Assembly (NCBI GenBank): GCA_016215155.1
Contig: JACRLQ010000023.1
Coordinates: 1 to 60,411, forward strand
DNA from: Nitrospirota bacterium
GTDB taxonomy: Bacteria; Nitrospirota; Thermodesulfovibrionia; Thermodesulfovibrionales; UBA6898
Direction: 5' to 3'
DNA: 60,411 nt
The position numbers and the translations under genes were made by a program. The notes under the pieces are model-generated. The model did not search any database, was not told the origin of the DNA, and saw only the letters and a program-made list of their open reading frames with translations. Below, piece after piece: positions 26,444 through 42,874 of the stretch; the first letter of the stretch is position 1, and each line of letters starts with the position of its first letter.

Positions 26444-29404
26444 ATGAAAAAGGAAATAATACATGCGACAAAATCAATAAACGGTTTTAACGCGACGCGT
26501 AAGATTCTCCTGACATCGAGGGCGGGTCTGCTGCTGTTGTTGCCCCTGATAATTAGTTTGTTTGTGTTTCAGGGATGGTTCGTCGCGTCGGATGCCGAGG
26601 GGGCGGTAACGAACCTTCAGCAGTTTCCGTCAACCCCCCAGATGACGGCCACTACCGGAAACCTCTCAGGCACGTTCACGATTTCAAGCGGACCAAATCG
26701 TCTTTTTGTCGTCGTGGTATCAGCCGCCAACAACAACGGCTCTACCATGACATTCGCTGCGACATACGGCGGGGTCGCCCTGACTCAGGCCGCCACGAGT
26801 ACCTCTGGCTCCCAAAAATCATCAACATGGATCGGCTACCTTGATGAGACCGGCATAAGTTCGAAGACCTCGGATGACGTAGCCGTCACGATTACCGGCT
26901 CTCATACGGGCGCGATAGGATACATGGCAAGTTACCAGAATGTAAGCCAGTCAGCGCCTATAACCGCCAACGGCGGTTATTATTTTGATAACACATCCAC
27001 TACAGCAATCGGTCCTCTGGCTGCCAATACCGGGGGATACGGAATATACATCTGGGGCGGGCAAAACACCGTCACGAGAACGTCCGATACCGAGGCTTAC
27101 ACTGAACACTCGGACCTGCAAACGACTTACGGCAATCTCAAGGATTTCGGGGTATGCTCCAAAGCCATCTCGGCATCGACTAATCCGACGATTACATGGA
27201 GCGGCAATGTTAACCTTGCATCACTTTCGCTTGTTACGCTGAACTGGGCAGTCCCCGCAGTCACTGCCACTTCACCGAATATAAAGGCACGTGGCAGTTC
27301 CCAGGCAACCGTTACTATCACGGGCGCCAACTTTGGCGCGGGTGCAGCGGTCTCCTTTAATGATTCGCAAATCACGGTCGGCACGGTGACCGTAGTGAGT
27401 CCGACAGCAATAACTGTGCCTGTTACAGTCGGCGCATCCGCAACACTTGGCGCGCATGATGTGACGGTAACCAATACAGATGGAGGAAGCGGAACCGGAA
27501 CGGGAGTGTTCGTTGTTTTTGGACCGCCGACGGTCTCATCCACAACTCCAAACATACGGGGCCAGGGGGCCGTCAGTCAGAACATAACGATTACCGGGAC
27601 CAATTTCTTAAGCAGTGCAACGGCAAGTTTCAGCGGCACGGGTATCACGGTCAATTCAACTACATACGTGAGTGCAACATCCCTGACCGCGAATATAACT
27701 ATTGCCTCAAATGCGACGACGGACGGCAGGAACGTCACGGTTAATAACAACGATGGCGCCGGTACAGGAACAGGGACTAATGTGTTTACTGTCAGCGCAT
27801 CACCGACGGTCACATCGACAAGTCCAAACAGCCGGGGGCAGGGGGCAACCAATAAGAACATAACTATATATGGGACGAATTTCGCGAGCGGCGCAACGGC
27901 AAGCTTCAGCGGCACGGGTATTACGGTAAACTCAACAACATTCACCAATTCAACAATAGTGACCGCGAACGTAACGATCGCGGCAGGTGCAGCGACAGGC
28001 AGCCGGAACGTAACGGTAACGAACCTTGATGCGGGAGTTGGGACAGGGACTAATGTGTTCACTGTTAATGCGGCCCCCGCGGTCACGTCTGTAACCCCAA
28101 ACAGCAAACCGCAGGGGGTCAGCAATCAGAATATAACGATAACGGGGACCGGGTTTGTCAGCGGCGCCGGTCTTGCGGCGAGCTTCAGCGGCACCGGTAT
28201 CACGGTCAACTCCACGACATATGTGAGTGCCACGTCCCTGACCGCGAACATAACGATCGCTGAAAGTGCGACCGCGGGCAGCAGGGACGTAACCGTGACG
28301 AACCCTGACGGAGGCGCCGGTACAGGCACCGGAGCATTTACCGTCAATGCAGGACCCAAGGTTACATCGACAACTCCAAACAGCCGGCTTCAGGGTTCCA
28401 GCAATCAGAATATAACGATAACGGGGACCGGGTTTGTGAGCGGCGCCGGTCTTGCGGCAAGCTTCAGCGGCACGGGTATCACGGTAAACTCCACGACATA
28501 TGTGAGTGCCACATCCCTGACGGCAAATATAACGATCGCCGGAAATGCGACGACAGGCAGCCGGAACGTCACCGTAACGAACCCTGATGGAGGTGCCGGC
28601 ACGGGGACGGGAGTATTCACGGTCACTTCTCCCCCAACGGTAATATCGGCTTCACCTAATCAAAGGGCCCAGAACACCGCCCTGACGACGGTGACCATCA
28701 CAGGCGCCGGTTTTCAGGCGGGTGCGACGGTGTCGTTTAACGATGCAAACATAACCCTGGGGGCGGTGACTGTTGTAAACGCAACGACGATAACTCTGCC
28801 GGTGACGGTTACAGCTTCAGCAGCGTTGGGCGCGCATAACGTAACGGTAACAAACCTTGATGGAGGTGTCGGCACGGGGACGGGAGTATTCACGGTCAAC
28901 GTAAATACGACACCTACTGTCTCATCCGCAACTCCAAACAGCCGGGGCCAGGGGACCAGCAATCAGAACATAACGATTACCGGTACTAATTTCAGGAGCA
29001 ATGCAACGGCAAGTTTCAGCGGCACGGGTATTACGGTAAACTCAACGACGTATGTGAGTGCAACATCCCTGACCGCGAACATAACTGTTGCCGCGGGTGC
29101 TGCGACGGGGTTACGGAGCGTAACGGTAAATAACAACGATGGCAGCACCGCGGGAACAGGGACTAACGTGTTCACGGTTAATGCGTCACCTACGGTTACA
29201 TCGACAACTCCTAACAGCCGGCTTCAGGGTTCCAGTAATCAGAATATAACGATAACGGGGACCGGTTTTGTGAGCGGTTCCGGTCTTGCGGCAAGTTTCA
29301 GCGGCACGGGTATCACGGTAAACTCAACGACGTATGTGAGTGCAACATCCCTGACGAGGCACCGGCACGGGCACAGGGGTGTTCACTGTCAATGCCGGAC
29401 CTAA
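26444..29404 (+). CDS. Giant surface protein, N-terminal part (IPT/TIG repeats), ends at a frameshift
   Basis: 986 codons from ATG 26444 (aaggggg upstream). Signal/TM segment ~28-48; a ~220-residue N-terminal domain rich in Ser/Thr/Gly; then eight IPT/TIG Ig-like repeats of ~80-90 residues opening (V/K)(T/S)STTPN and containing SFSGTGITVNSTTYVSATSLT. In repeat eight, just after SATSLT, the frame is lost and 17 unrelated residues lead to a stop at 29402-29404. The same repeat pattern resumes in the +1 frame, so this and the next entry are one gene. The break is a real deletion, an assembly collapse, or a base error. Confidence 0.8.
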   Translation: MKKEIIHATKSINGFNATRKILLTSRAGLLLLLPLIISLFVFQGWFVASDAEGAVTNLQQFPSTPQMTATTGNLSGTFTISSGPNRLFVVVVSAANNNGSTMTFAATYGGVALTQAATSTSGSQKSSTWIGYLDETGISSKTSDDVAVTITGSHTGAIGYMASYQNVSQSAPITANGGYYFDNTSTTAIGPLAANTGGYGIYIWGGQNTVTRTSDTEAYTEHSDLQTTYGNLKDFGVCSKAISASTNPTITWSGNVNLASLSLVTLNWAVPAVTATSPNIKARGSSQATVTITGANFGAGAAVSFNDSQITVGTVTVVSPTAITVPVTVGASATLGAHDVTVTNTDGGSGTGTGVFVVFGPPTVSSTTPNIRGQGAVSQNITITGTNFLSSATASFSGTGITVNSTTYVSATSLTANITIASNATTDGRNVTVNNNDGAGTGTGTNVFTVSASPTVTSTSPNSRGQGATNKNITIYGTNFASGATASFSGTGITVNSTTFTNSTIVTANVTIAAGAATGSRNVTVTNLDAGVGTGTNVFTVNAAPAVTSVTPNSKPQGVSNQNITITGTGFVSGAGLAASFSGTGITVNSTTYVSATSLTANITIAESATAGSRDVTVTNPDGGAGTGTGAFTVNAGPKVTSTTPNSRLQGSSNQNITITGTGFVSGAGLAASFSGTGITVNSTTYVSATSLTANITIAGNATTGSRNVTVTNPDGGAGTGTGVFTVTSPPTVISASPNQRAQNTALTTVTITGAGFQAGATVSFNDANITLGAVTVVNATTITLPVTVTASAALGAHNVTVTNLDGGVGTGTGVFTVNVNTTPTVSSATPNSRGQGTSNQNITITGTNFRSNATASFSGTGITVNSTTYVSATSLTANITVAAGAATGLRSVTVNNNDGSTAGTGTNVFTVNASPTVTSTTPNSRLQGSSNQNITITGTGFVSGSGLAASFSGTGITVNSTTYVSATSLTRHRHGHRGVHCQCRT

Positions 29405-30210
29405 AGTCACATCGACATCACCCAATACCAGGGGCCGCAACAGCGCCCAGACCACTGTCACCATCACAGGGACCGGTTTTGCGGGCGGGGCAACGGTGAA
29501 TTTCAACGATGCAGGCATAACCCAGGGCGCCGTAACTGTAGTAAACGCAACAACGATAACACTGCCTGTTACCGTGACCGTGACTGCAACACCGGGCGCG
29601 CATAACGTAAGCGTTACGAATACTGATGGCGGGGCAGGGACAGGAAGTCAGGTTTTCACCGTGACCGCAGCCCCTTCGGTTGCCTCTGCGTCACCCAATC
29701 AAAGGCCCCGTGGCAGCGCCCAGACCACTGTCACCATCACAGGGACCGGGTTTGCGAGCGGCGCTGCAGTCTCATTCAATGATGCGAACATAACCCTGGG
29801 TGCGGTGACTGTTGTCAATTCGTCTACAATAACACTGCCTGTCACCGTGACAGGGACGGCAACCGTCGGCAGCCATAATGTTACGGTTACAAACGCTGAC
29901 GGCGGAACCGCAACCGGCACAGGCGTATTCACCGTTACGAATGCGCCGACAGTCACATATACATCGCCTAATGCGTTGGCGCAGGGCAGCGCGCCCACGA
30001 CGGTGACGATAACCGGGACTGGTTTTGCCGCCGGGTCCACGGTTTCTTTCAATGATGCGGGCATAACCCTCGGGGCGGTGACCGTTGTAAATGCCACAAC
30101 GATAACCCTGCCTGTTACCGTGACTGCCACGGCGGCCGCAGGTTCACATAACGTGACGGTGACAAACGCAGACGGCGGCTCCGGGACCGGCACAGCTGTT
30201 TTTACGGTCG
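27270..30210 (+). repeat. Array of about eleven IPT/TIG-coding repeats
   Basis: Units of ~240-280 bp share long identical stretches such as agcttcagcggcac, acatccctgac and aacataacgat. One unit (29,195-29,400) is truncated and carries the frameshift. Such near-identical repeats favour unequal recombination and also short-read assembly collapse. Confidence 0.85.
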
Positions 30211-33200
30211 GGACCTCTACTTATGGCTCGGTCCCTTACTGGGACAACGGCGCAGGAGCAGTATTCGCCCCTCAGCAATGGCCGACCGAAGCTCAGTGGG
30301 TCCCCTATACCTGGGGAAGTGCGTTCATTAAAGACCCGCGTGTCCTTGACCCGTCAAACGGAGGCACGAGGCCCCAGAATTACGTCAATGTAAGCTCAGG
30401 ATGTCCTGATCAGTCGCTTCCCAGCATGTATGTTTATTATGCAAACAATACCCTTTATTTCAGATGGAGGGTTGAGCAGATACCAAACACCTATGCGACA
30501 GGACCCGGGCCGGGCGCCTTCAGCGATGTCGATCCATGGAAGGCCGCCCAGTGGACTGTGTTCCTGGATACGGACGGCGACGGGTTCAGGGAATTCGGCA
30601 TGCAGCTTGACGGTTCCACGGGCATGCCGGCCTGGCCTGTGGATATCCTCCGCACGGTATACAGCAACACTCTCGATCATAATATGTCCCCCCACGACAG
30701 GGACATCTTCGAACTCTGGCACAACCCGACGGCCTTTGTGGACGGGACCTCAGGCAGCACCACCGACACCATTCTTAATTTTCATGGCACGAACGCGCCT
30801 GATACAAGTTGGCCTAATGGTCCTGCTGAGGTGGTCTGGGACTATGGGACCACCAGAGCTATCAATATAACGGATTACGACCCGCGCCTGTCTATTGATA
30901 AGGGCATCTCAGGGGCGCAACAGTGCGGCCTGACACAGGAAAACGAGTACTTTGTCGACTACCAGATCCCCGTGGGCATGTTAAGCAACGGCTCTTATAA
31001 CTTCGACTGCCAGAACCCGACGGGGCTTTTCTTTGCGACGGCAAACAGTCTTACAAATCCTTTCCAGAAGGACGTCGTCGCAAATACCGGTTATACCGGA
31101 GCATCAGAGAACTGCGCGCCTTATGGCGATCAGGTTGTCCTTTGCGGGCCGACCGGACCCACGATGGTCCCTCAGCCTGTAGTTGACTGGGTCACTACAT
31201 CAACATCGGGGTGCAACCAGACACTCACCGCAAAGGTGCGCGGCTCGGTTGTCCAGTCTTCCTGCAGCCCGGATATCACCGGCGCTGATTTCTATTATTA
31301 TTACGACGCAAACGCAAACGGTCTGGCGGATGACGGAGGGGCATGGCATCTGCTGGGCGCCGGCTCCAAGTCCTCAACGGACCAGACTAACTGGACCTAT
31401 CTGTGGAACACGACAGGAAGCGGCCTGCCGGCAGGAAACTATCTTGTCGGTGTTGATACGGTAAACAGCATCGGCTATCACACGTGGAGTTACAGCAGCA
31501 CGCCGATAGGCGTATCTCCGCCAAATTTTGCGAACCCTTCGCCCAAGCCAGGCCTGGTTTATGGATCGACCCTTTTAACCGGCGCATGCGGAGAGACGGC
31601 CATCGTCGATAAAACCGTGACTCCGGGCAAGACGATTATTAACTCGACCGTGCAATTTACAATTACAGTGCATAATAACACCTCCGGCGATATGCAGGTA
31701 AACAGTGTGACGGATTACCTGCCGCAGGGTGTGGACGGATATTCATTTGCCTACATAAGCTCTCCGGCGCCGACAGGGACGGGCGCCCTCTCAGCCCCGG
31801 GGGCGCCGACGGTGTCCGGGACTACCGTCACCTGGAACTTTTCTCCCGCCCGTACGATTTCCGCCGGGCAGAATGCGACGATCACGTTCACTTCACAGGC
31901 GCCTTCTGTTGAAGGCACCTATCAGAACACCTGCGGGGCGAACGCCTATGTCACGTCCTGGGGAATGACAAAGAACATAAACTGCAATTATGTGACGATC
32001 GAGGTCGGCGCGCCGAGGCTTACGATCGCAAAGACCGCGGATGTGACTTCAAGAGCGGTAGGTGAGACGATAAATTATACGGTCACCTATTCAAACGATT
32101 CGCCCTTTACGGCAACCGGCGCCTATATCACTGACGTCCTGCCTGCCGGGCTTACGTTTGTATCAGCGGCGAACGACGGAACGTATAATTCGTCAAACAG
32201 GACGATAACCTGGTACATCGGCACAATTTATGGAGGCACGGGACCTTTTACCGTCTCCTTTGTGGCGACGGTCACGAACCCGTATCCGGCGACTGAGCCA
32301 ATCAAGCTGAAAAATGTCGCGACGATCTATTCAAACGAGACGACGCCGAAACAGGCGGACGTTACGGTCATCATAACCGGTCTTTCGCGTCCAATCCTGA
32401 CGATCCAGAAGATCGGAAACAAGGTTTTCGTCGACCCAACCCAAGCCTCCCCTGCCGACAGGGTCACCTACACAATTTCCTATTCGAATGTCGGCAATGC
32501 AACCGCAACCAATTCGATAATATCGGATACAGTGCCCCCCGGCTGGACCTATGTCTCTTCTGCGGCCGGGACAAATTGCCCGGCCGGCACAACCACCGGC
32601 AACCCCGTCACCCTGATAAACTGGAATCTGGGGAGCGTGGCAGTTGGCGTGACAGGTACCTGCAACCTGATATTAAGGGCCGCTGACTCTCAGTCCAGCC
32701 CTTATACCGGAGACAACCCCTCCACCAATACAGCCAGCATCCGGGCGGATGGCTTCCCTCCGGTGAGCAGCAGCTTTACCGTGGCCCTAACCGGTGCAAT
32801 GCAATGTACCGGCACGAAATACTTTTTCCATGAGGAAACGACAAACGTCGGGTATGACGGGGTAAAAGAGATAGCAACTGTTTCTTATCCCAGTTCGGGT
32901 GCCGCGGCATACAAGCACGTCAACTGGATGTCACAGGGATGCGATATAGGTTCCTATTCCCCCATAGTAGATTTTTATATGGACCCGGTTCTGGTCAACA
33001 CCGGGACTGCGTCCAGCGTCACCTCCTCATGGTATCTGACCAAGACAAACGGGAACCCCTCAAACGTAAAAGTTTCCGTATATGACTATAACCCGACAGA
33101 CGGGAACAAGACCCTTCTGGCATCAGTAGTTCATTCCATAAAGGGGGCGAGCCAGACACCGTCTCTAGATTCCGACACCTTTATTTTAAATCAAGCGCCC

Positions 33201-36200
33201 TTGGCCGGGCATCGTCTGTACTGGCTATATGAAGGATGCACCACTGCGCAAAATCAGATCCTCGACGTTTACTATTACTATGACGGCATATATACGGATA
33301 GTAACAGCACGGTCCCGACCCCAAGCCATTTCTGCTATCAGGGGACCTCGGCGCTCATGAACAAAACCGTTGACAAGATGACTGCAATCCCAGGGGACAC
33401 CCTGACATACACGATGACCTTCGGCAATAACGGCGCCACCAACTTAACCGGAGCGCAGATCACGGATACACTGCCGACCGGAACGACGTATGTGAGTGCG
33501 ACGCTCAACGGAGCTGCGACTACCTGTTCGCAGGCCGGTCAGATTATCACCTGTGGGGTGAGGTCGAACGAGACGCCTGCCCCCGCGGTGGGAACGATAA
33601 CCGTCGGGCAGCAGGGAACGCTTGTCATTATCGCCACGGTGAACAATCCCTTCCCCGCAGGCCAGTATGAACTTATAAACAGTGCGACCCTGACGACCAG
33701 TCAGGCCGCGCCGATCACTGCCACGGCAAGGACGGTTGTGACGACGGACATCTCTATTTCGAAGTCTGTCGACAAAACACTGCTGTATCCCGGCGATATG
33801 GCCACGTTTACATTGAGTGTCAAAAACAGCAGCGGCGCAAACATAACGGTGAACATAGGCGATGTGTTGCCTACGGACACATACTTTTATTATGTAGGCT
33901 GCTCGGATGCATGCGGCTGGGATTCAGTGTCTCACACCGTTACGTGGACAAATATAACCGTGAATGCCAACTCTTCACGAAGCGTTACGTTCCAGATGAG
34001 GGTTGACACTGTAGGTGTGCCCATCGGGACTACGTATAAAGACAATACCGGAGTAGTAACCTACGGTTCACAACAATACAGCAACACCGTGACAGTGGCG
34101 ATACTGAACAACCCAAACATCAATATCACAAAGAGTGTTTCGCCCGCGGGTCCTGTAAAGGCCGGTGATACGATTACCTGGAACATGACAGTGACTAACA
34201 ACGGTCCTCAGAGCGCGTTTGGGGTGCTTGTGACGGATCCGATTATCCCCTATACGACATATAAGACCGGGAGCCTGACGTATGAGTTAACGGCCCAGAC
34301 GGATGCAAACGATTCACCAACCGACACCTCCTATTACGATGCAGTCAATGACCGTGTTGTTTATGAAGTGGGCACTCTGGCCGGCGGTGCGTCTAGGACG
34401 ATGAGCTTCAGCGCTATTGTTGACAGGCCGATGCCCAGTGGTACTACGGTCCTTACGAATACAGCAACGGTTTCGTCGAGCAATACGGGTACGAAGCAGG
34501 CGACGGCGACCATAAATGTAACTGATGCCCCGTCATTTGTGCTCAATAAGTATGCTGCATCCCTTGTTGCCTCGGGTCAAAATGTTACCTTTACCGTCTA
34601 CTACAAGAACACCGGCGGCGCAACCGCTACCTCGGCTGTAGTGACTGATACGCTTGCCGCAAACCTTACCTTTGTCTCCGCCGACGAAGGCGGGACTTAC
34701 GATTCCGGCACCAGAACGGTAACCTGGAACCTCGGGACACTCCCTCCGGATGCCGAGGGTTCGTTGCATCTTACAGTAACCCCCGCGGTCTGCGGGACAT
34801 ATTCAAATACAGCTACGATCTCCTCGGCGCAGACAGCCCCGTTGAACTCGAATATTACATCGACGGACGTATGCTGGTTGGAGCCGACCAAAAAGACCAC
34901 TACGGATCCGACTCTTATGACGGTAACGAATACTTCCACAGGCACACTGGCGACATATATCCTGACTGTCAGCAACCCGACCGGCACCACAGCAACAGGC
35001 GTTCAGGTCACGGACAATTTTCCTTCGGGCTTCAGCTATGACAGCAGTGTAACCCCTGTGTTTGGCGGAACAGGAACTAACAGGACTGCCCTGGTTAACC
35101 CGTCAAACGGGGCGACTCATCCGACCTGGGGGACCTGGGACATAAACGCCGGAGGCTCTCTTACTATCGCGTTTACGGCCAAGGTTGCATCGACAGTCCC
35201 TGAAGGCATATACGATAATGGGGTAGCGGCAACAAGCACAAACAATAGTGTGATGCTCTTCGATGAACTCGCCACGGCGGCTGACGACGTTAAGGTCGTT
35301 GTTCCGGTTGATCTGTCTGTAACCAAGACAGTCAATATTGCCGAGCCTCAGGGGACCGGGCCGGGGGCCGAGTTTGTATATACAATTACTTTGACGAATG
35401 TGGGAGTCAACCATGCCTTCAAGGTAAATCTTTCCGACCTCTTGCCGTCAGACATTACATATGTTTCAAATACCGCCAGCCAGGGGTCTTACAGCAACGC
35501 GACCGGTATCTGGGACGTCGGCAGGGTCGACAGATATGCCGGCGCAACTCTCACAATAACCGCATTCCCAAATGACGGCACCGCGGGAATGACGATCGAC
35601 AACTGTGCTTATCTGACTTCATCCGTGCCCCGCGAACCCAGTTATAGTGATCCCGATGACTGGAGTTGCGCAAGCATTAAGCCGACCCATGTCACGCTCT
35701 CGGGCTTCAGGGCTTTTGTCGAGGGGGGCAGCGTCGTTGTCGAATGGGAGACGGCTGCCGAGCGTAATACGGTGGGCTTTTATGTAGAACGTTATCACGA
35801 AAAGACCGGAGAGTATGTCCGTGTCAACAAGAAACTTCTGCCGGGTCTTATTACCTCCCGCGCGGGAGGCACATACCGCTTGATAGATGAAGCTGCCCCT
35901 GCCTCGGGAAGGCTTCTATATAGGCTTCTGGAGGTTGAATCAAAGGGCAACAAGGTTACTTACGGGCCATTCCATGTTGATCTTGGAGGCTCGGCGCTTA
36001 AGATAGAGAAGAAATTCGTCTCAGACGGCGCCATCGAGGTCACTATCCGCAGAAAGGTCGTGTCTTCCACCCGTCCGGCTGATCTGTCCAGACAGGGCTT
36101 TGAACAGGTCACCGGGGTTTACAGCAGGAAGGCTCACAGGCCTTCGCCACAAACCGCTGGCCGCTTTGCCGCGGCAAAGGCAGGGGCCTCAGCTGTTCAG

Positions 36201-38258
36201 CCGGCGGCTGTTCAGGCCGGAACCGCCATAAAGATGGCCGTCTCCGAAACAGGGCTTTATTATATCGATGCTTCGGATATCTCGGCCCTGCTGAATATAA
36301 CCCAGTCTTCGGTCCGCGCCCGGATAGGGGCAGGGGACTTTGCCCTGACGACCGGCGGGCGTCAGGTCGCCTATACCGGGGCGGAAGGCAACGCGGGCAT
36401 TTTCTTTTACGGGAAGGCCCTCGAAAGCGTGTATACCGGCGCCAATATATACTGGATCAAAGAGGGCAGGGGCCTCCTGATGCAGACCGTGGGCGGTGAC
36501 AAGGAGACGCTCGAAGGCGTTGCCGCCGATGCCTTCGCCGATACAATTCATGCCGAGCAGGATGTCTGGAGTGACACAAGCCTCGCCAAAGACCCAAATT
36601 CAGACTATTGGTATTGGGATTATGTCATGGCGGACTACCCCGGGTTTGACTATAAAGAGTTCAGTTTCAGGGCGGACTCTGTTTCCGCCGCGACCGGGAC
36701 CGCGACTATCGGGGCCAGGCTGCAATCGATCGTACCGTTCCGCAGCCGGGCTGTTATAACACTTAACGGGAGTACGACCATTTTCGACGGCATATGGGAT
36801 GGACTTGACCCAAAGACGGTCGTCGCGAACATCGACCAGGGCCTTCTCAGGGAAGGTGACAATATCATTGGAGTCAGAGCCATGCTTGAGTCCGGCGTTG
36901 ATTTCAGCGCATTTTACATAGACTCATTTGATGTTACCTATGCTCGGCGCTTTGAGGCTGTAAATGACTCGCTGAGTTTCAGATCGGAGGGCAGTCCCGT
37001 CATCACCGTCGATGGTTTTACTACGCCTGACATTTCAGTGTTCGAAATTACCAATTCTCAGAGGCCTCGGCTGGTCACGGCCGCGGAGGTACTTGACCAG
37101 GGCGGCGCCAGTTACAGCGTGAGGTTCTATCCGGTAAGGACAGCCGCCTCCTACATCGCGGTTACGACAGGTTCCATTAAGCGGGCCGACGCGGCGGCTG
37201 ACCGGCCTTCTGACCTCAGGAAAAATGATAACGCCGCGGAGTATGTCGTGATAGCCCCTGCTGAGTTGAAAGATGCAGTCGCGGGTCTTGCCGAATACAG
37301 AAGGGGCCAGGGCATGACCGTCAAGGTCGCGATGCTTGAGGACATAATGGACGAATTCAACTTTGGGGTGAGCGATCCCAATGCGATTAGAACTTTTCTC
37401 GAATATGCCTATAAGAACTGGAAGAAAAAGCCCCGATATGCGGCGCTGGCCGGCAGCGGGACTTTCGATTATAAAAATTATGGGGGGTATGGCGGTAATC
37501 TGATTCCCGCTCTTATGGTAGGATCACCGTGGGGACTTTCGCCCTCGGACAATGTGCTGGGTGATTTTAACAACGACGATGTCCCTGAGATCATCGTCGG
37601 CAGGCTGCCTGTGCTGAGTTCAGCGGAACTTCAGGTGCTTATAAACAAGATCATGACGTTTGAGGCCTCACACAGCGAAGGGACCATCCTTATTGCTGAC
37701 AAGGCCGACGGAGGCGGTGATTTTCCGAAAGACAGTAATGAAATCGCCGGACTTTTCACCGCCGGCTATCCCCTGCAGAGGATTTATCTGCAGGAAAATC
37801 AGCTTGCGCAGGCCCGGAAATCCCTGTTTGACGGCATGAAGGCAGGCACAAAATTTATCAACTATCTCGGTCACGGCACAGTCGAGCGCTTATCCGAAGG
37901 CGGTCTGCTCACAAAGGATGATGCGGCCGGACTTATTAATAGCGCCTATCCCGTGATGACCGCGCTGACATGCTCTTCCGGCCATTACGCGCTTCCGGGC
38001 TTCGATGCCCTGATGGAGGCGCTGATCATAAGAAACGGCGGAGGTATCGTATCTTCCTGGGCGCCGACGGACTGGTCATACAATGCTGATGCGAAGATCC
38101 TCGGAGAGGGTTTCTATAAGGCGGTCTTTCGTCCCGTCGTGACGACCATGGGTGATGCCGTCACAAGGGCCATGACTGCATATAAGGCGTCCGGCAGGGC
38201 CTCTTACGAGCTCAATATATTCAATATAATCGGAGATCCGGCCCTGAGGCTTAAATAG
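29379..38258 (+). CDS. Giant surface protein, C-terminal part: IPT, DUF11 repeats, gingipain-like C25 peptidase domain
   Basis: 2959 codons, resuming at VFTVNAG after the frame break; the GTG at 29379 is only the first available codon. Order: three IPT/TIG repeats to ~30,200; a ~300-residue domain with D.DGDG (30,230-31,550); about nine DUF11-type repeats with V.DTLP.G.TYVSA (31,600-35,640); a linker; a propeptide-like beta domain; and a C-terminal peptidase C25 domain (~37,200-38,258). The C25 dyad is visible: His in NYLGHGTVE (~37,870) and Cys in ALTCSSGHY (~37,970). Ends NIIGDPALRLK with no sorting tail recognised. The RiPP genes follow within 35 bp. Intact, the gene would encode about 3,940 residues. 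Confidence 0.85.
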   Translation: MFTVNAGPKVTSTSPNTRGRNSAQTTVTITGTGFAGGATVNFNDAGITQGAVTVVNATTITLPVTVTVTATPGAHNVSVTNTDGGAGTGSQVFTVTAAPSVASASPNQRPRGSAQTTVTITGTGFASGAAVSFNDANITLGAVTVVNSSTITLPVTVTGTATVGSHNVTVTNADGGTATGTGVFTVTNAPTVTYTSPNALAQGSAPTTVTITGTGFAAGSTVSFNDAGITLGAVTVVNATTITLPVTVTATAAAGSHNVTVTNADGGSGTGTAVFTVGTSTYGSVPYWDNGAGAVFAPQQWPTEAQWVPYTWGSAFIKDPRVLDPSNGGTRPQNYVNVSSGCPDQSLPSMYVYYANNTLYFRWRVEQIPNTYATGPGPGAFSDVDPWKAAQWTVFLDTDGDGFREFGMQLDGSTGMPAWPVDILRTVYSNTLDHNMSPHDRDIFELWHNPTAFVDGTSGSTTDTILNFHGTNAPDTSWPNGPAEVVWDYGTTRAINITDYDPRLSIDKGISGAQQCGLTQENEYFVDYQIPVGMLSNGSYNFDCQNPTGLFFATANSLTNPFQKDVVANTGYTGASENCAPYGDQVVLCGPTGPTMVPQPVVDWVTTSTSGCNQTLTAKVRGSVVQSSCSPDITGADFYYYYDANANGLADDGGAWHLLGAGSKSSTDQTNWTYLWNTTGSGLPAGNYLVGVDTVNSIGYHTWSYSSTPIGVSPPNFANPSPKPGLVYGSTLLTGACGETAIVDKTVTPGKTIINSTVQFTITVHNNTSGDMQVNSVTDYLPQGVDGYSFAYISSPAPTGTGALSAPGAPTVSGTTVTWNFSPARTISAGQNATITFTSQAPSVEGTYQNTCGANAYVTSWGMTKNINCNYVTIEVGAPRLTIAKTADVTSRAVGETINYTVTYSNDSPFTATGAYITDVLPAGLTFVSAANDGTYNSSNRTITWYIGTIYGGTGPFTVSFVATVTNPYPATEPIKLKNVATIYSNETTPKQADVTVIITGLSRPILTIQKIGNKVFVDPTQASPADRVTYTISYSNVGNATATNSIISDTVPPGWTYVSSAAGTNCPAGTTTGNPVTLINWNLGSVAVGVTGTCNLILRAADSQSSPYTGDNPSTNTASIRADGFPPVSSSFTVALTGAMQCTGTKYFFHEETTNVGYDGVKEIATVSYPSSGAAAYKHVNWMSQGCDIGSYSPIVDFYMDPVLVNTGTASSVTSSWYLTKTNGNPSNVKVSVYDYNPTDGNKTLLASVVHSIKGASQTPSLDSDTFILNQAPLAGHRLYWLYEGCTTAQNQILDVYYYYDGIYTDSNSTVPTPSHFCYQGTSALMNKTVDKMTAIPGDTLTYTMTFGNNGATNLTGAQITDTLPTGTTYVSATLNGAATTCSQAGQIITCGVRSNETPAPAVGTITVGQQGTLVIIATVNNPFPAGQYELINSATLTTSQAAPITATARTVVTTDISISKSVDKTLLYPGDMATFTLSVKNSSGANITVNIGDVLPTDTYFYYVGCSDACGWDSVSHTVTWTNITVNANSSRSVTFQMRVDTVGVPIGTTYKDNTGVVTYGSQQYSNTVTVAILNNPNINITKSVSPAGPVKAGDTITWNMTVTNNGPQSAFGVLVTDPIIPYTTYKTGSLTYELTAQTDANDSPTDTSYYDAVNDRVVYEVGTLAGGASRTMSFSAIVDRPMPSGTTVLTNTATVSSSNTGTKQATATINVTDAPSFVLNKYAASLVASGQNVTFTVYYKNTGGATATSAVVTDTLAANLTFVSADEGGTYDSGTRTVTWNLGTLPPDAEGSLHLTVTPAVCGTYSNTATISSAQTAPLNSNITSTDVCWLEPTKKTTTDPTLMTVTNTSTGTLATYILTVSNPTGTTATGVQVTDNFPSGFSYDSSVTPVFGGTGTNRTALVNPSNGATHPTWGTWDINAGGSLTIAFTAKVASTVPEGIYDNGVAATSTNNSVMLFDELATAADDVKVVVPVDLSVTKTVNIAEPQGTGPGAEFVYTITLTNVGVNHAFKVNLSDLLPSDITYVSNTASQGSYSNATGIWDVGRVDRYAGATLTITAFPNDGTAGMTIDNCAYLTSSVPREPSYSDPDDWSCASIKPTHVTLSGFRAFVEGGSVVVEWETAAERNTVGFYVERYHEKTGEYVRVNKKLLPGLITSRAGGTYRLIDEAAPASGRLLYRLLEVESKGNKVTYGPFHVDLGGSALKIEKKFVSDGAIEVTIRRKVVSSTRPADLSRQGFEQVTGVYSRKAHRPSPQTAGRFAAAKAGASAVQPAAVQAGTAIKMAVSETGLYYIDASDISALLNITQSSVRARIGAGDFALTTGGRQVAYTGAEGNAGIFFYGKALESVYTGANIYWIKEGRGLLMQTVGGDKETLEGVAADAFADTIHAEQDVWSDTSLAKDPNSDYWYWDYVMADYPGFDYKEFSFRADSVSAATGTATIGARLQSIVPFRSRAVITLNGSTTIFDGIWDGLDPKTVVANIDQGLLREGDNIIGVRAMLESGVDFSAFYIDSFDVTYARRFEAVNDSLSFRSEGSPVITVDGFTTPDISVFEITNSQRPRLVTAAEVLDQGGASYSVRFYPVRTAASYIAVTTGSIKRADAAADRPSDLRKNDNAAEYVVIAPAELKDAVAGLAEYRRGQGMTVKVAMLEDIMDEFNFGVSDPNAIRTFLEYAYKNWKKKPRYAALAGSGTFDYKNYGGYGGNLIPALMVGSPWGLSPSDNVLGDFNNDDVPEIIVGRLPVLSSAELQVLINKIMTFEASHSEGTILIADKADGGGDFPKDSNEIAGLFTAGYPLQRIYLQENQLAQARKSLFDGMKAGTKFINYLGHGTVERLSEGGLLTKDDAAGLINSAYPVMTALTCSSGHYALPGFDALMEALIIRNGGGIVSSWAPTDWSYNADAKILGEGFYKAVFRPVVTTMGDAVTRAMTAYKASGRASYELNIFNIIGDPALRLK

Positions 38259-38291
38259 GGCGTGATGTCAGCGATGGCCGGAGACGGGAAT

Positions 38292-38585
38292 ATGGGGAGT
38301 CTGAGGGGAATATACAGGAAGCGCGGGGACATCATCTCCAGGGAGATAGCCGGCGAGACGGTCCTTGTGCCTGTGAGGGGCAAGCTTGCGGACATGCAGA
38401 GGATCTTTTCTCTTAATCCGATGGCTGCCTTTCTCTGGGGCCAGATCGACGGGACACAGGACCTTCAGGCGATACTCTCGAATGTCGTCAGCGACTTCGA
38501 GGTCACCGCGCAGTGCGCGGAGTCGGATATCAGGGAGTTAATCATGGAACTCCTTGAAGCCGGCCTTATTGAGTTTGTTCAGTGA
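38292..38585 (+). CDS. PqqD-like peptide-binding protein (RRE)
   Basis: 97 residues from ATG 38292, which has CGGAGACGGG upstream; earlier in-frame GTG/ATG codons (38262, 38265) lack one. It matches the PqqD fold: YRKRGDIISREIAGETVLVPV, then NPMAAFLWGQIDG and a C-terminal helix ending ELLEAGLIEF. PqqD proteins bind the leader of RiPP precursors and present it to a radical SAM enzyme. It overlaps the radical SAM gene (TGATG) and begins 33 bp after the giant gene, so cotranscription with it is possible. Confidence 0.88.
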   Translation: MGSLRGIYRKRGDIISREIAGETVLVPVRGKLADMQRIFSLNPMAAFLWGQIDGTQDLQAILSNVVSDFEVTAQCAESDIRELIMELLEAGLIEFVQ

Positions 38586-39676
38586 TGGAATGCACTTCTT
38601 CATATAGCGCTTCAGAGTATATGAAGTATTTCAACAGCAGGCTTGAATTGCACAGGGTCCCGGTGTCGGGCGGGCTCGAGATAACAAAACATTGCAACCT
38701 GAAATGCGCCCATTGCTATATCGGGTCCGCGAGAACTCCCTCCGCGGGCGACCGGCCTGAAATGAAAACTGACAAGATACTGGGACTGCTGGATGAAATC
38801 CGTGATGCGGGGTGCCTGAGTCTGCTTATAACGGGGGGTGAGCCCCTGCTTAGGCCCGACTTCGGGAAGGTTTATGAGCGGGCCAAGAATAATGGTATGC
38901 TGGTGACGGTTTTTACAAACGGGACACTGATACACGAAGAGATCCTTGAGCTTTTTTCTGGCCTGCCTCCGAGGTCCGTAGAAATCAGCCTGTACGGCGC
39001 GACGGCCCGAACATACGAGGCCGTAACCGGGGTGCCCGGATCCTATGCCAAATGTATAAGAGGCCTTGAGGGGCTTCTTGCCGGAGGCATTGAGGTCGGC
39101 CTGAAGACTGTCCTCATGTCCGTCAACCGGCACGAGTTTTTCGATATAAAGAATATGGCGAAGCAATATGGGGTTGCTTTCCGGTTTGATTCTGACATCT
39201 TTCCGCGTTTTGACGGCGACCGCATGCCGCTTGACCTGAGGGTCCCGATCGAGGATTCCGTGGCTTTGGAAATGTCTGATCCCAAGAGACTCGAAGGATG
39301 GAGGAAATTCCTGCGGACCAATGGCAGTTTCAGGTTGGGCGAAAGGCTCTATAACTGCGGGGCCGGCGTCACTAACTTTCATATCGACGCCTCCGGATAT
39401 CTTATGCCGTGCCTGATGATCAGGGAGGGACGCTTTGACCTTTTGTCAGGGGACTTTGTCGCGGGATGGAAAAAGATGGCGTTTCTCCATGAGAAAAAGA
39501 CCGATCCCGCGAACCCTTGCATTGGCTGTGATAAAATATCGTTATGCAGCTATTGTCCCGCTTTTTTTCGGCTCGAAAACGGAGATGAAAACAGCGCCCC
39601 GGAATATCTCTGCAGTTCTGGAGAGGCCCGGTATAATGTTATAATGAAGCAAGAACCGATATCCAGGGAGGCATAG
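38585..39676 (+). CDS. Radical SAM/SPASM peptide maturase
   Basis: 363 residues. The radical SAM cluster motif CNLKCAHC lies near residue 35, followed by the SAM-binding LLITGGEPLLR. The C-terminal SPASM domain has CGAGVTNFHID.SGYLMPC, then PCIGCDKISLCSYC and a final YLC, the Cys set that binds two auxiliary Fe-S clusters. Enzymes of this type crosslink Cys or other side chains of ribosomal peptides, or make other radical modifications. Coupled to pqqD by a TGATG overlap; the precursor gene starts at the next base after its stop. Which bond it makes is not predictable. Confidence 0.92.
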   Translation: MECTSSYSASEYMKYFNSRLELHRVPVSGGLEITKHCNLKCAHCYIGSARTPSAGDRPEMKTDKILGLLDEIRDAGCLSLLITGGEPLLRPDFGKVYERAKNNGMLVTVFTNGTLIHEEILELFSGLPPRSVEISLYGATARTYEAVTGVPGSYAKCIRGLEGLLAGGIEVGLKTVLMSVNRHEFFDIKNMAKQYGVAFRFDSDIFPRFDGDRMPLDLRVPIEDSVALEMSDPKRLEGWRKFLRTNGSFRLGERLYNCGAGVTNFHIDASGYLMPCLMIREGRFDLLSGDFVAGWKKMAFLHEKKTDPANPCIGCDKISLCSYCPAFFRLENGDENSAPEYLCSSGEARYNVIMKQEPISREA

Positions 39677-39832
39677 ATGAAGATAAAAAAGAAAATATAC
39701 ATTAAACCTCAGCTGAGGATCATAGAGCTTAAGGCCGAAGAGGTAATGGTTGCCGGCTGCAAGATGCTAGGCCGGACCGCTCCTGGCGGGGTGACCTGCT
39801 TTTCCAACAGATGCGCCGGGACAGGCTCATAA
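39677..39832 (+). CDS. RiPP precursor peptide (51 residues)
   Basis: ATG 39677 follows the radical SAM stop directly, with AGGGAGG seven bases upstream. The leader (~1-27) is Lys-rich then amphipathic: IYIKPQLRIIELKAEEVMVA, the style of leaders bound by PqqD domains. The core (~27-51) starts at Gly27-Cys28, has Cys at 28, 41 and 46, many Gly/Thr/Ser residues, and ends ...CAGTGS with Ser51 at the C-terminus. Too short for most gene callers. Position between maturase and kinase, strong ribosome site and leader/core contrast make the assignment good; the modification and cleavage site (probably near VAG/C) are inference. Confidence 0.85.
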   Translation: MKIKKKIYIKPQLRIIELKAEEVMVAGCKMLGRTAPGGVTCFSNRCAGTGS

Positions 39833-39847
39833 AAGTTTCTTTTCCCC

Positions 39848-40735
39848 GTGGGGCAGGTATTGAATATAGGCGGGGTGCGGCTGGCATTGTCTTGCCGGCA
39901 GGGCATTGACGTCTCTTCACATTATGAAGCCTATGATGAGTTTTATGTCGGACAAACGAGTGGCGCTTTAGAAACCCCGGACATTTCCGTGGATATCTCC
40001 TTCGGCCGGGTCCATGATATCACGGAGTTACGGGACTGTTTTGAGACCGGCCAGTCATGGTCTTTATTCAGAGATGGGGATAATTATCTCGTTAAGTTTA
40101 AGCGGGTGGGATCAACGGACTGTTATATGACCGCCCTCATAAGCCGGGACATAAGCGCGGTGGACCTGAGATGCGGTAATGAGCTTATAGGCAGCGGGGG
40201 GAGGGTGGATAGTCCTGTCTGTTACCCTCTCGACCAGATTCTTCTCATGCAATATCTTGTCAGACACGAAGGGATTATAGCCCATTCAGCCGGGGCGTCA
40301 TTCAACGGCAAAGGATATCTCTTTCCGGGATGCTCCGGGGCGGGGAAGTCCACTATTTCACGGAGTATGTACGGATCGGACAAGATGCTGCTTCTAAGCG
40401 ACGACAGGATAATTATAAGGAAGGGACCAGATACCTTCTCAATATTCGGTACGCCGTGGCCGGGCGATGCCTCAATAGCGGTGAACCGGTCTGCTCCTCT
40501 TAAAGGGGTCTTCTTCCTCGTAAAAGGCGGTGAAAACAGGATTGAACCCATCGATGAATCAGAGGCATTCAGGAGGTTCATGCCGGTGCTCTCGGTCCCG
40601 TGGTATGACAGGGACTCCGTTTCGGCGGCGCTTTCGCTTGTGAATGGACTCATCTCAGCAGTTCCATCGTATCTGATAAGTTTTAAACCGGGGAAAGAGG
40701 TGTCAGATTACCTTGAAGAATTTATCTCCGGATAA
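39848..40735 (+). CDS. HPr-kinase-like ATP-dependent kinase of the RiPP locus
   Basis: 295 residues from GTG 39848, 15 bp after the precursor stop; no clear ribosome site, so the start is uncertain. C-terminal half: AHSAGA (~145-150), P-loop GCSGAGKST (161-169), Asp pair LLSDDR (183-187), and FGTPWPGD (~200-207), the order seen in HprK/P catalytic domains. The N-terminal ~130 residues replace the HprK regulatory domain. Related enzymes in some lasso-peptide clusters phosphorylate the precursor's C-terminal Ser; the precursor here also ends in Ser. Substrate assignment is inference. Confidence 0.8.
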   Translation: MGQVLNIGGVRLALSCRQGIDVSSHYEAYDEFYVGQTSGALETPDISVDISFGRVHDITELRDCFETGQSWSLFRDGDNYLVKFKRVGSTDCYMTALISRDISAVDLRCGNELIGSGGRVDSPVCYPLDQILLMQYLVRHEGIIAHSAGASFNGKGYLFPGCSGAGKSTISRSMYGSDKMLLLSDDRIIIRKGPDTFSIFGTPWPGDASIAVNRSAPLKGVFFLVKGGENRIEPIDESEAFRRFMPVLSVPWYDRDSVSAALSLVNGLISAVPSYLISFKPGKEVSDYLEEFISG

Positions 40736-40742
40736 CACATCC

Positions 40743-41237
40743 ATGGGCCTGCCCGCCCTGGCCTCTTTCGAAAATACCGAGGTGACCGCCTTTTTCGGGG
40801 AGATATTAAAAAGCGGCCTCAGTCTCCGTGTCAGGGTGACCGGGCGAAGCATGGCCCCTTTTTTGAAGGGAGGTGAAGTCGTTACGATTAAACAGGCGGC
40901 TGCGTCTGACCTCCGGAGGGGAGACCTTATTTTGTTCGACAGCCCCCATGGGGTTCAGGTGCTTCACAGGCTCGTAAGGAAAAAGCGCGGCGCGGGCGGC
41001 TCCCATATTTATCAAACCAGGGGAGATGCGCTTAGGACGCTCGACGGCCCGATAACTTCAAATGAGATTTTGGGCAGGGTCTGTTCGATAGAGCACAACC
41101 ATCCAACATCCGGCGGACGCCGGACAGAGATGGGGTCAGCCCTCCAGAGGACCATTAATTACTTGCTCGCGGTGATTAACCTTGCTGAATCTTTTATATA
41201 TTGTTCAGTCGCCGGACGGTCAACAAAGGGGTGTTGA
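40743..41237 (+). CDS. S24/S26-family (SipW-like) peptidase of the RiPP locus
   Basis: 164 residues from ATG 40743; an in-frame TTG at 40713 overlapping the kinase gene is possible. Motifs of the Ser/His branch of signal peptidases: VTGRSMAPFLKGG (Ser36), GDLILF, VLHRLVR (His75 in place of the Lys of LepB) and TRGDALRTLDGPI. A hydrophobic segment near the C-terminus (~138-155) may anchor it. As the last enzyme of the locus it may remove the leader from the modified peptide. The usual N-terminal TM of signal peptidase I is absent. Confidence 0.8.
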   Translation: MGLPALASFENTEVTAFFGEILKSGLSLRVRVTGRSMAPFLKGGEVVTIKQAAASDLRRGDLILFDSPHGVQVLHRLVRKKRGAGGSHIYQTRGDALRTLDGPITSNEILGRVCSIEHNHPTSGGRRTEMGSALQRTINYLLAVINLAESFIYCSVAGRSTKGC

Positions 41238-41338: not shown

Positions 41339-42874
41339 ATGAATAAATGGATAGTGGCGCTGACCGTCATGCTCCCTACACTTATCGAGATAGTGGACAC
41401 GTCCGTCGTGAACGTGTCACTCGACAGCATCCGGGGGAGCCTTTCCGCGGGTATCGACGAATCTACATGGACGATAACCTCGTACCTTGTGTCCAACGCG
41501 ATAATAATCCCGATGACGGGCTGGCTGAGCAGGATCATCGGCAGGAAGAAGTATCTGATCCTTTCGATCATGCTCTTTACGCTCAGTTCTTTTTTATGCG
41601 GCATCTCGTGGGACCTCCAGAGCCTGGTATTTTTCAGGGTCCTGCAGGGCATAGGTGGGGGCGCGCTCCAGCCGATATCGCAGTCGATACTGCTTGAGAC
41701 CTTCCCGAGGAAGCAGCATGGCATGGCCATGGCCATATTTGGGGTGGGGATCATGTTCGGACCGATCATCGGCCCTCTGCTTGGCGGCTGGATAACCGAC
41801 AACTGGTCATGGCACTGGATATTCTTTATCAATATTCCCATCGGGGTGGTCTCCGTTTTCATGGCCCTGTTTTTTATATCCGACCCGCCTTACATGAAAC
41901 GGATGAGCATGAAGATAGACTATTGGGGACTTGCCCTCCTTGCCATCGGTCTGGGGTGCCTGCAGATTGTGCTGGACAAGGGGCAGATGGAGGACTGGTT
42001 CTCTTCGGGTTTCATAACCGGACTGACCCTCGTCTCCGTTACGTGTCTGGTTTTGTTCCTTTATGTCGAGTCTGTTGTTGACCACCCCATAATGAGCCTG
42101 AAGACCTTCAGAAATATCTCCTTCAGCACGGGTAATATCGTCATGTTCTTTGCCTTCTTTAATCTTTTCGGGAGCATCGTGCTGCTTCCGGTATATCTTC
42201 AGACGTTGATGGGGTATACCTCGACGCTCTCGGGCATGGTGCTCGGCCCAGGGGGCATCGCGACGCTGGTTGCGATGCCGGTTGCCGGACGGCTGGTTAC
42301 TAAAATGAGCCCTAAGGCCCTGCTCGCGTTTGGGATCGTAATGTCGTCATATTCGACCTGGCTCATGTCGAATTTCAGTCTGGCGGCCGACTTCGACGCG
42401 GTCATATGGCCCCGTATCGTCCTTGGCGTGGGCATGGGTTTTTTGTTCATCCCTCTTACCACACTGACCATGTCCACCATAAAAAAAGAGGACATGGCAA
42501 ACGCCTCGGCGATATATAATCTTTTGAGGAACCTCGGCGGCAGCTTCGGTGTCGCGTTCGTGACAACCATGCTTGCCCGGCGCGCGCAGTTCCATCAGGT
42601 CAGACTCAGCGACCACTTCACCCCATTTGACGCGAATTATCAGATTGCCGCGCAGACGGCGTCACGCATGCTTGAGGTCAAAGGCATGGACCACACTACC
42701 GCGTTACAGGGGGGGCCGGGCCTGCTCTACGGGCAGATGGTCAGGCAGGCGTCGATGTTGTCGTTTAACGACGTCTTTCATCTTCTGAGCCTCTGCATGA
42801 TATTTATTCTCCCGCTCGTGCTGCTTATGAGGAGGGGCAGAGGTGAAGACTCCCCGTCGGCGGGAATGCATTAA
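41339..42874 (+). CDS. DHA2-family MFS exporter (EmrB/QacA-like)
   Basis: 511 residues, about 14 hydrophobic segments. Marks: LIEIVDTSVVNVSL in TM1, GWLSRIIGRKK after TM2, FFRVLQGIGGGALQP in TM4 and GIMFGPIIGPLLGGW in TM5 (antiporter motif). Proton-driven export of drugs or peptides. It lies 101 bp after the peptidase gene on the same strand, so it may belong to the RiPP locus as exporter or be an ordinary drug pump; no EmrA partner is present. Confidence 0.9.
   Translation: MNKWIVALTVMLPTLIEIVDTSVVNVSLDSIRGSLSAGIDESTWTITSYLVSNAIIIPMTGWLSRIIGRKKYLILSIMLFTLSSFLCGISWDLQSLVFFRVLQGIGGGALQPISQSILLETFPRKQHGMAMAIFGVGIMFGPIIGPLLGGWITDNWSWHWIFFINIPIGVVSVFMALFFISDPPYMKRMSMKIDYWGLALLAIGLGCLQIVLDKGQMEDWFSSGFITGLTLVSVTCLVLFLYVESVVDHPIMSLKTFRNISFSTGNIVMFFAFFNLFGSIVLLPVYLQTLMGYTSTLSGMVLGPGGIATLVAMPVAGRLVTKMSPKALLAFGIVMSSYSTWLMSNFSLAADFDAVIWPRIVLGVGMGFLFIPLTTLTMSTIKKEDMANASAIYNLLRNLGGSFGVAFVTTMLARRAQFHQVRLSDHFTPFDANYQIAAQTASRMLEVKGMDHTTALQGGPGLLYGQMVRQASMLSFNDVFHLLSLCMIFILPLVLLMRRGRGEDSPSAGMH

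Follow-up and report, generated by a model that had tools for sequence, protein, structure and literature searches.

A radical-SAM RiPP operon in a Nitrospirota genome with an HprK-like kinase predicted to phosphorylate the C-terminal serine of its precursor

HprK-like kinases are known from several peptide clusters. In lasso peptide clusters, PadeK, ThcoK, SyanK and PsmK phosphorylate, often repeatedly, the C-terminal Ser of the precursors, and the terminal Ser is conserved wherever the kinase occurs (PMC9266682). BsfK, from the cluster of a Bradymonas lasso peptide, acts on Ser3 of a precursor that ends in Asp; it takes Thr at this site, its phosphorylation is accelerated by the RiPP recognition element (RRE), and it carries, like the other lasso kinases, the motif H-G-G-G-K-S-D-D (PMC10368454). 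A further system is that of the linear polyphosphorylated peptides (LPPs; LppA/LppK/LppB/LppS), in which LppK acts on internal Ser3, Thr is not accepted there, and the leader peptidase proved to be a SipW-like protein; discrete lasso RREs bind the leader motif YxxPxL (PMC13381572, 2026). LPP clusters were also described in capsule loci. In the literature searched, lasso peptides are the only ones whose C-terminal Ser is described as phosphorylated by HprK-like kinases, and no HprK-like kinase was found in a radical-SAM RiPP cluster; subscription journals lay mostly outside this search, and priority is uncertain. The combination of HprK-related and radical SAM genes has already been noted in the NCBIfam SynChlorMet models, with its function unstated.

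Here, a radical-SAM RiPP operon is described from the window, i.e., the whole 60,411-nt stretch of Nitrospirota DNA that was analysed. With good confidence, the HprK-like kinase adjacent to its precursor gene is inferred to phosphorylate the precursor's C-terminal Ser51, for which no biochemical or MS data exist.

Gene organization and the kinase

Five genes follow each other on the + strand, encoding a PqqD-like RRE, a SPASM radical SAM enzyme, the precursor, the HprK-like kinase and an S26 peptidase. The first one, which is kept as the first gene in relatives, encodes a PqqD-like discrete RRE of 107 aa (38262..38585; Pfam PF05402, 57.2 bits against a cut-off of 23.4). The radical SAM/SPASM maturase of 364 aa (38582..39676; PF04055, 81 bits) has a Cys pattern of CNLKCAHC at 38-45 followed by C259...C277...C313xxC316...C322xxC325...C344, and its homologs in relatives are 28-74% identical. 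It meets the criteria for SPASM radical SAM RiPP systems, namely CxxxCxxC plus SPASM Cys, an RRE and a small precursor. Its stop at 39676 abuts the precursor ATG without a gap. The precursor ORF (39677..39832, +) translates to MKIKKKIYIKPQLRIIELKAEEVMVAGCKMLGRTAPGGVTCFSNRCAGTGS, a peptide of 51 aa with the leader motif YxxPxL (Y8-IKPQ-L13), three core Cys that are conserved in precursors (Cys28, Cys41 and Cys46), and, as the last residue before TAA, the proposed phospho-acceptor Ser51 (TCA, 39827..39829).

The kinase gene (39848..40735, +; 295 aa) starts with GTG at 39848, exactly 15 bp (39833-39847) after the precursor stop. In L031, the nearest relative (62% identity in the kinase), GTG stands in the matching place, and the gap is 15 bp too. 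Another possible start, TTG at 39860, which is preceded by GGGGCAGG and would leave a 27-bp gap, cannot be excluded. The preliminary description had read the locus as a precursor ending in Ser51, a kinase gene 15 bp behind it, and a radical SAM maturase in place of a lasso cyclase, and all three points were confirmed: apart from the codons and the SPASM Cys pattern given above, no SGGxDS-type Asn-synthetase motif of a lasso macrolactam synthetase is present in the six frames of the window, on which ground a lasso cluster identity was rejected.

The last gene of the operon (40713..41237, +) encodes a SipW/archaeal-type signal peptidase I-like S26 protease (TIGR02228, 54.4 bits against a cut-off of 51.85). 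Its motifs, GRSMAP, HRLV and RGDA, are presumably the Ser/His/Asp arrangement of SipW/archaeal signal peptidases. The S26 peptidase is present in 23 of the 24 loci compared from clade A, the kinase clade of the window, and the protein is the probable leader peptidase. Judging from the overlapping or abutting genes, co-expression of the operon is likely. An EmrB-like MFS gene (41339-42874) was rejected as a cluster member, being absent from the neighbours common to relatives.

Homologs of the kinase were found in 71 of 395 Nitrospirota genomes. The kinase contains H146, G161xSGxGKST169, D185-D186-R187 and G201TPW204, so that the H-K-D-D motif (H146, K167, D185 and D186) is intact; H146, G161, S163, G166, K167, T169, D185 and R187 are invariant in 41/41 homologs. 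The models of HprK proper score below their cut-offs, with 13.4 bits for TIGR00679 (240) and 11.4 bits for PF07475 Hpr_kinase_C (33.3), and membership among true HPr kinases/phosphatases (HprK) was rejected on these scores. A PDB sequence search gave matches at the P-loop level only. In one alignment (A2), used purely as a search profile, the row of the L031 kinase carries an error of one letter close to the N-terminus (GQ for GH). An AlphaFold2 model was built from a five-row alignment, in which residues ~130-295 are usable and the first 125 are of low confidence. Its core aligns with structures of HprK/P from several bacteria and of PEP carboxykinases: Foldseek found HprK/P 1kkl at E 2.9e-4, and the best HprK/P structures superpose with Z 11.3-11.4 and rmsd 2.6-3.0 over 119-124 residues. 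As modelled, the kinase shows the core fold of HprK/P. The weak resemblance to Hpr_kinase_C and the low-confidence N-terminal part count against a terminal Ser kinase.

The C-terminal residue of related precursors

A C-terminal Ser in one precursor alone would mean little, since Ser or Thr is the last residue in 48 of 328 neighbouring proteins (14.6%). Its invariance across relatives goes beyond chance. The codon check took in 106 precursors overall, and 98 of them belong to kinase clade A or to clade B, a sister clade with "GTPF" in place of "GTPW". These come from Nitrospirota, Acidobacteriota and Elusimicrobiota (one locus, L111), and all 98 have Ser (94) or Thr (4) as the last residue; three later finds outside this set (L158, L161 and L188) are Ser-ending as well. 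The precursor profile A1 includes the C-terminal column and leans to Ser-ending peptides, while the finds of a leader regular expression blind to the C-terminus are unaffected by this: it recovered 42 precursors, with 41 Ser and one Thr at the end. Relatedness of the clusters also inflates simple counts. After removal of similar cores, Ser/Thr remained at the end in 54/54, and in these 54 dissimilar cores the last position has an entropy of 0.38 bits, compared with 2.98-3.78 bits at the seven preceding positions. Of the terminal Ser codons, 71 are TCN and 23 are AGY, and all six Ser codons occur. Clade B precursors are very unlike those of clade A (FETxALAC, EKIExxAGxC and other leaders), and yet they end in Ser/Thr.

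Precursor and kinase are nearly always found together. Of the 395 Nitrospirota genomes, 64 were positive in a precursor profile search; both genes are present in 61 genomes, the precursor only in three, the kinase only in ten, and neither in 321 (Fisher p = 4.8e-57, descriptive only because the genomes are related). Where precursors lie on contigs without a kinase, the copy in L071 is degenerate, that in L072 contains a stop, and those in L073 and L074 are intact duplicates from genomes where a kinase is present elsewhere. In the genomes of the two decayed copies no kinase was detected, and kinase loss seems to go with precursor decay.

In two other kinase clades, the precursors mostly have other last residues. 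Precursors adjoining kinases of the ScmC clade (clade C) end in D, E, Y or F; one such kinase, in L106, scores 245 bits to TIGR04249 (true ScmC). The precursors of an "EWEERYEPV" group, paired with another kinase clade, have L (L101 and L124), G (L141) and S (L122) as their last residues, and the precursor of L103 ends in H. In a tree of 78 kinases, clade A comprises 48 kinases (SH-aLRT 94), all paired with Ser/Thr precursors. The eight rows without Ser/Thr require two changes on this tree against a shuffled mean of 7.8, and none of 500 shuffles was as low; L103 and one L106 kinase lie on long branches, and their placement is unsure. From these shuffles and the natural negative controls, it follows that the terminal Ser/Thr tracks the kinase clade rather than the mere presence of an HprK-like protein. 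A different acceptor must be assumed for the clades lacking it, by analogy with BsfK and LppK. Kinase-less PqqD/radical SAM loci in the taxonomic order of the window mostly have no leader-bearing precursor under the filter used, which is a weak control; the one of L187 ends in Arg.

Whether kinase-paired precursors end in Ser/Thr had been proposed as the check in the preliminary description, with kinase clusters lacking a terminal Ser as the refuting case. Over about 100 clusters, the expectation held throughout clades A and B and failed in the ScmC type and the "EWEERYEPV" group, the only places where the refuting case was met.

Several unusual loci were seen in the course of this comparison. 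The precursors of L101, L124, L141 and L122, of the form W.RPA.EWEE.YEPV..A.SC, lie beside kinase and radical SAM genes. SynChlorMet-type cassettes occur in Nitrospirota (L100, L106 and L067:4556-5542), with candidate precursors (e.g., YERPCLxxLS...) ending in Y, F, E or D. L076 (G305) has back-to-back radical SAM clusters: one with a kinase interrupted by an in-frame TAA and a Ser-ending precursor, and a second one whose precursor ends in GAG. L128, L153 and L155 each have a run of three HprK-like kinase genes and two radical SAM genes, and a precursor, ending in AAS, was found only in L155.

Predicted maturation and the C25-peptidase partner

In the pathway inferred, the PqqD-like protein would bind the YxxPxL leader, and the SPASM enzyme would modify the Cys-rich core; thioether cross-links of the three conserved Cys are likely but unproven, and the radical SAM chemistry is itself an inference. 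The kinase may then phosphorylate the terminal Ser once or several times through its H146/K167/D185-D186 site, and the SipW-like peptidase would cut off the leader. Phosphoryl transfer, the order of steps and any biological role are all inferred. Polyphosphorylation and biological activity remain a matter of inference or unknown.

The natural replacement of Ser by Thr fits a hydroxyl acceptor; BsfK takes Thr, LppK does not. Since both of these kinases use internal Ser3, membership in the HprK-like family does not determine the acceptor, which counts against the terminal Ser as the target. The terminal Ser may instead serve the radical SAM enzyme or the peptidase as a recognition element, or carry some other carboxyl-end modification, while the kinase, like BsfK and LppK, acts on a Ser/Thr inside the core or leader. 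ScmC-type clusters, which keep kinase and radical SAM genes without a terminal Ser, are consistent with this. It is nevertheless considered unlikely: no other Ser/Thr is conserved among the last eight positions, the terminal residue is swapped only between Ser and Thr as a hydroxyl acceptor would be, and clades A and B keep the terminal Ser in spite of their different leaders and radical SAM enzymes. Or the kinase homolog could bind nucleotides in a structural or regulatory capacity without being a peptide kinase, or could phosphorylate another cluster protein or a small molecule, as the HprK/PEPCK superfamily is functionally diverse and substrate data are lacking. This is highly improbable in view of H146, Walker A and D185, strictly conserved in all 41 homologs, of the near-constant pairing of precursor and kinase, and of the characterised HprK-like enzymes of RiPP clusters cited here, all of which are precursor kinases. 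A functionless Ser inherited by shared ancestry alone can scarcely be maintained, for though the precursors are homologous within each subclade, the adjoining positions are saturated with changes, both Ser codon boxes are in use, and L101, L124 and L141, from the other kinase clade, have not kept the Ser; chance or ancestry as its source was rejected by the codon and entropy analysis. Phosphorylation of the terminal Ser by the adjacent kinase remains the preferred reading.

Upstream of the operon lies a giant gene (29379..38258, +), whose product of 2959 aa contains TIG, nine DUF11 repeats and a C-terminal peptidase C25 domain (aa 2622-2958; PF01364, 3.5e-67). C25 homologs neighbour the cluster in 15 close Nitrospirota loci (L031, L033-L038, L040-L046 and L048; 31-63% identity) and in 12 Acidobacteriota loci (L129, L133, L135, L137-L139, L142, L144, L150, L151, L155 and L156; 25-40% identity). 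Within the order of the window, the 19 genomes with a C25 domain all have the kinase, within ~5 kb in 16 of them, so that the association is more than local synteny; in G186, the C25 gene lies at a contig end next to a PqqD gene. Nitrospira-type (f29) genomes yielded no C25 domain, and the giant gene is therefore not an obligate part. The DUF11/C25 gene is thus a conserved genetic partner across two phyla, its role being unknown, and it offers the first handle on the role of the peptide. Only tentatively, and at somewhat less than an even chance, a multi-phylum class of radical-SAM RiPPs may be envisaged in which a C-terminal Ser/Thr is phosphorylated by a dedicated HprK-like kinase and which, over some of its distribution, is functionally coupled to a giant C25 (gingipain/PorU-like) surface protein, e.g., as its substrate, inhibitor or ligand.

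The Nitrospira-type clusters (L049, L051, L056-L058, L060, L064-L066, L068 and similar ones) have an organization of their own: the radical SAM genes number three and the precursors, mostly RPS- or RAS-ending, one to three in tandem; a C25 gene is absent, and no S26 gene immediately follows the kinase.

Comparison with described systems

An invariant signature, specific to kinase clades and shared by radical-SAM clusters from three or more phyla, would make the terminal phosphate a portable tailoring module of RiPPs, and the modified residue is predicted for roughly 100 unexplored clusters. SynChlorMet cassettes (ScmC/ScmD/ScmE/ScmF) resemble the window in having HprK-related, PqqD-like and radical SAM/SPASM proteins; they differ in their two radical SAM enzymes, in a ScmC-type kinase that forms a separate clade, and in adjoining precursors that are not Ser-ending. 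The window scores 24.1 bits to ScmC (cut-off 125), 31.5 to ScmD (100), 80.7 to ScmE (400) and 85.7 to ScmF (400), and membership in SynChlorMet and in GeoRSP was rejected with scores far under the cut-offs. The motif H-G-G-G-K-S-D-D is common to the window kinase, BsfK and the lasso kinases, whereas the Ser3 acceptor and the Asp-ending precursor of BsfK are different.

From its gene content, the window system appears nearer to the LPPs than was known to the preliminary description. It shares with them a discrete RRE, an HprK-like kinase, a SipW-like signal peptidase, a YxxPx leader and a non-lasso nature. Unlike the window, LPP systems have no radical SAM enzyme and a kinase directed to internal Ser3, and of their leader YxxPxVLxHQxIxFETxxS, the window matches the YxxPx part only. 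An NTP transferase and an MsbA-like exporter belong to LPP clusters; neighbours common to clade-A loci include neither family, as far as a neighbour comparison without profile search can tell. In L035, L042, L043, L059, L062, L063 and L152, common neighbours resemble exopolysaccharide chain-length/export genes.

The preliminary description had suggested that C-terminal Ser phosphorylation extends to a RiPP class other than lasso peptides, and this gains support from the unbroken Ser/Thr ends in clades A and B together with the kinase motif and core fold, phosphorylation itself being inferred; by analogy, the tail-phosphorylation chemistry probably reaches such a class. Like the systems of PadeK, ThcoK, SyanK and PsmK, the window has an HprK-like kinase beside a Ser-ending precursor, the H-K-D-D motif and a YxxPxL leader, whereas, unlike in the lasso kinase clusters, these are combined with a SPASM radical SAM maturase, a core with three Cys and a likely S26/SipW-like leader protease.
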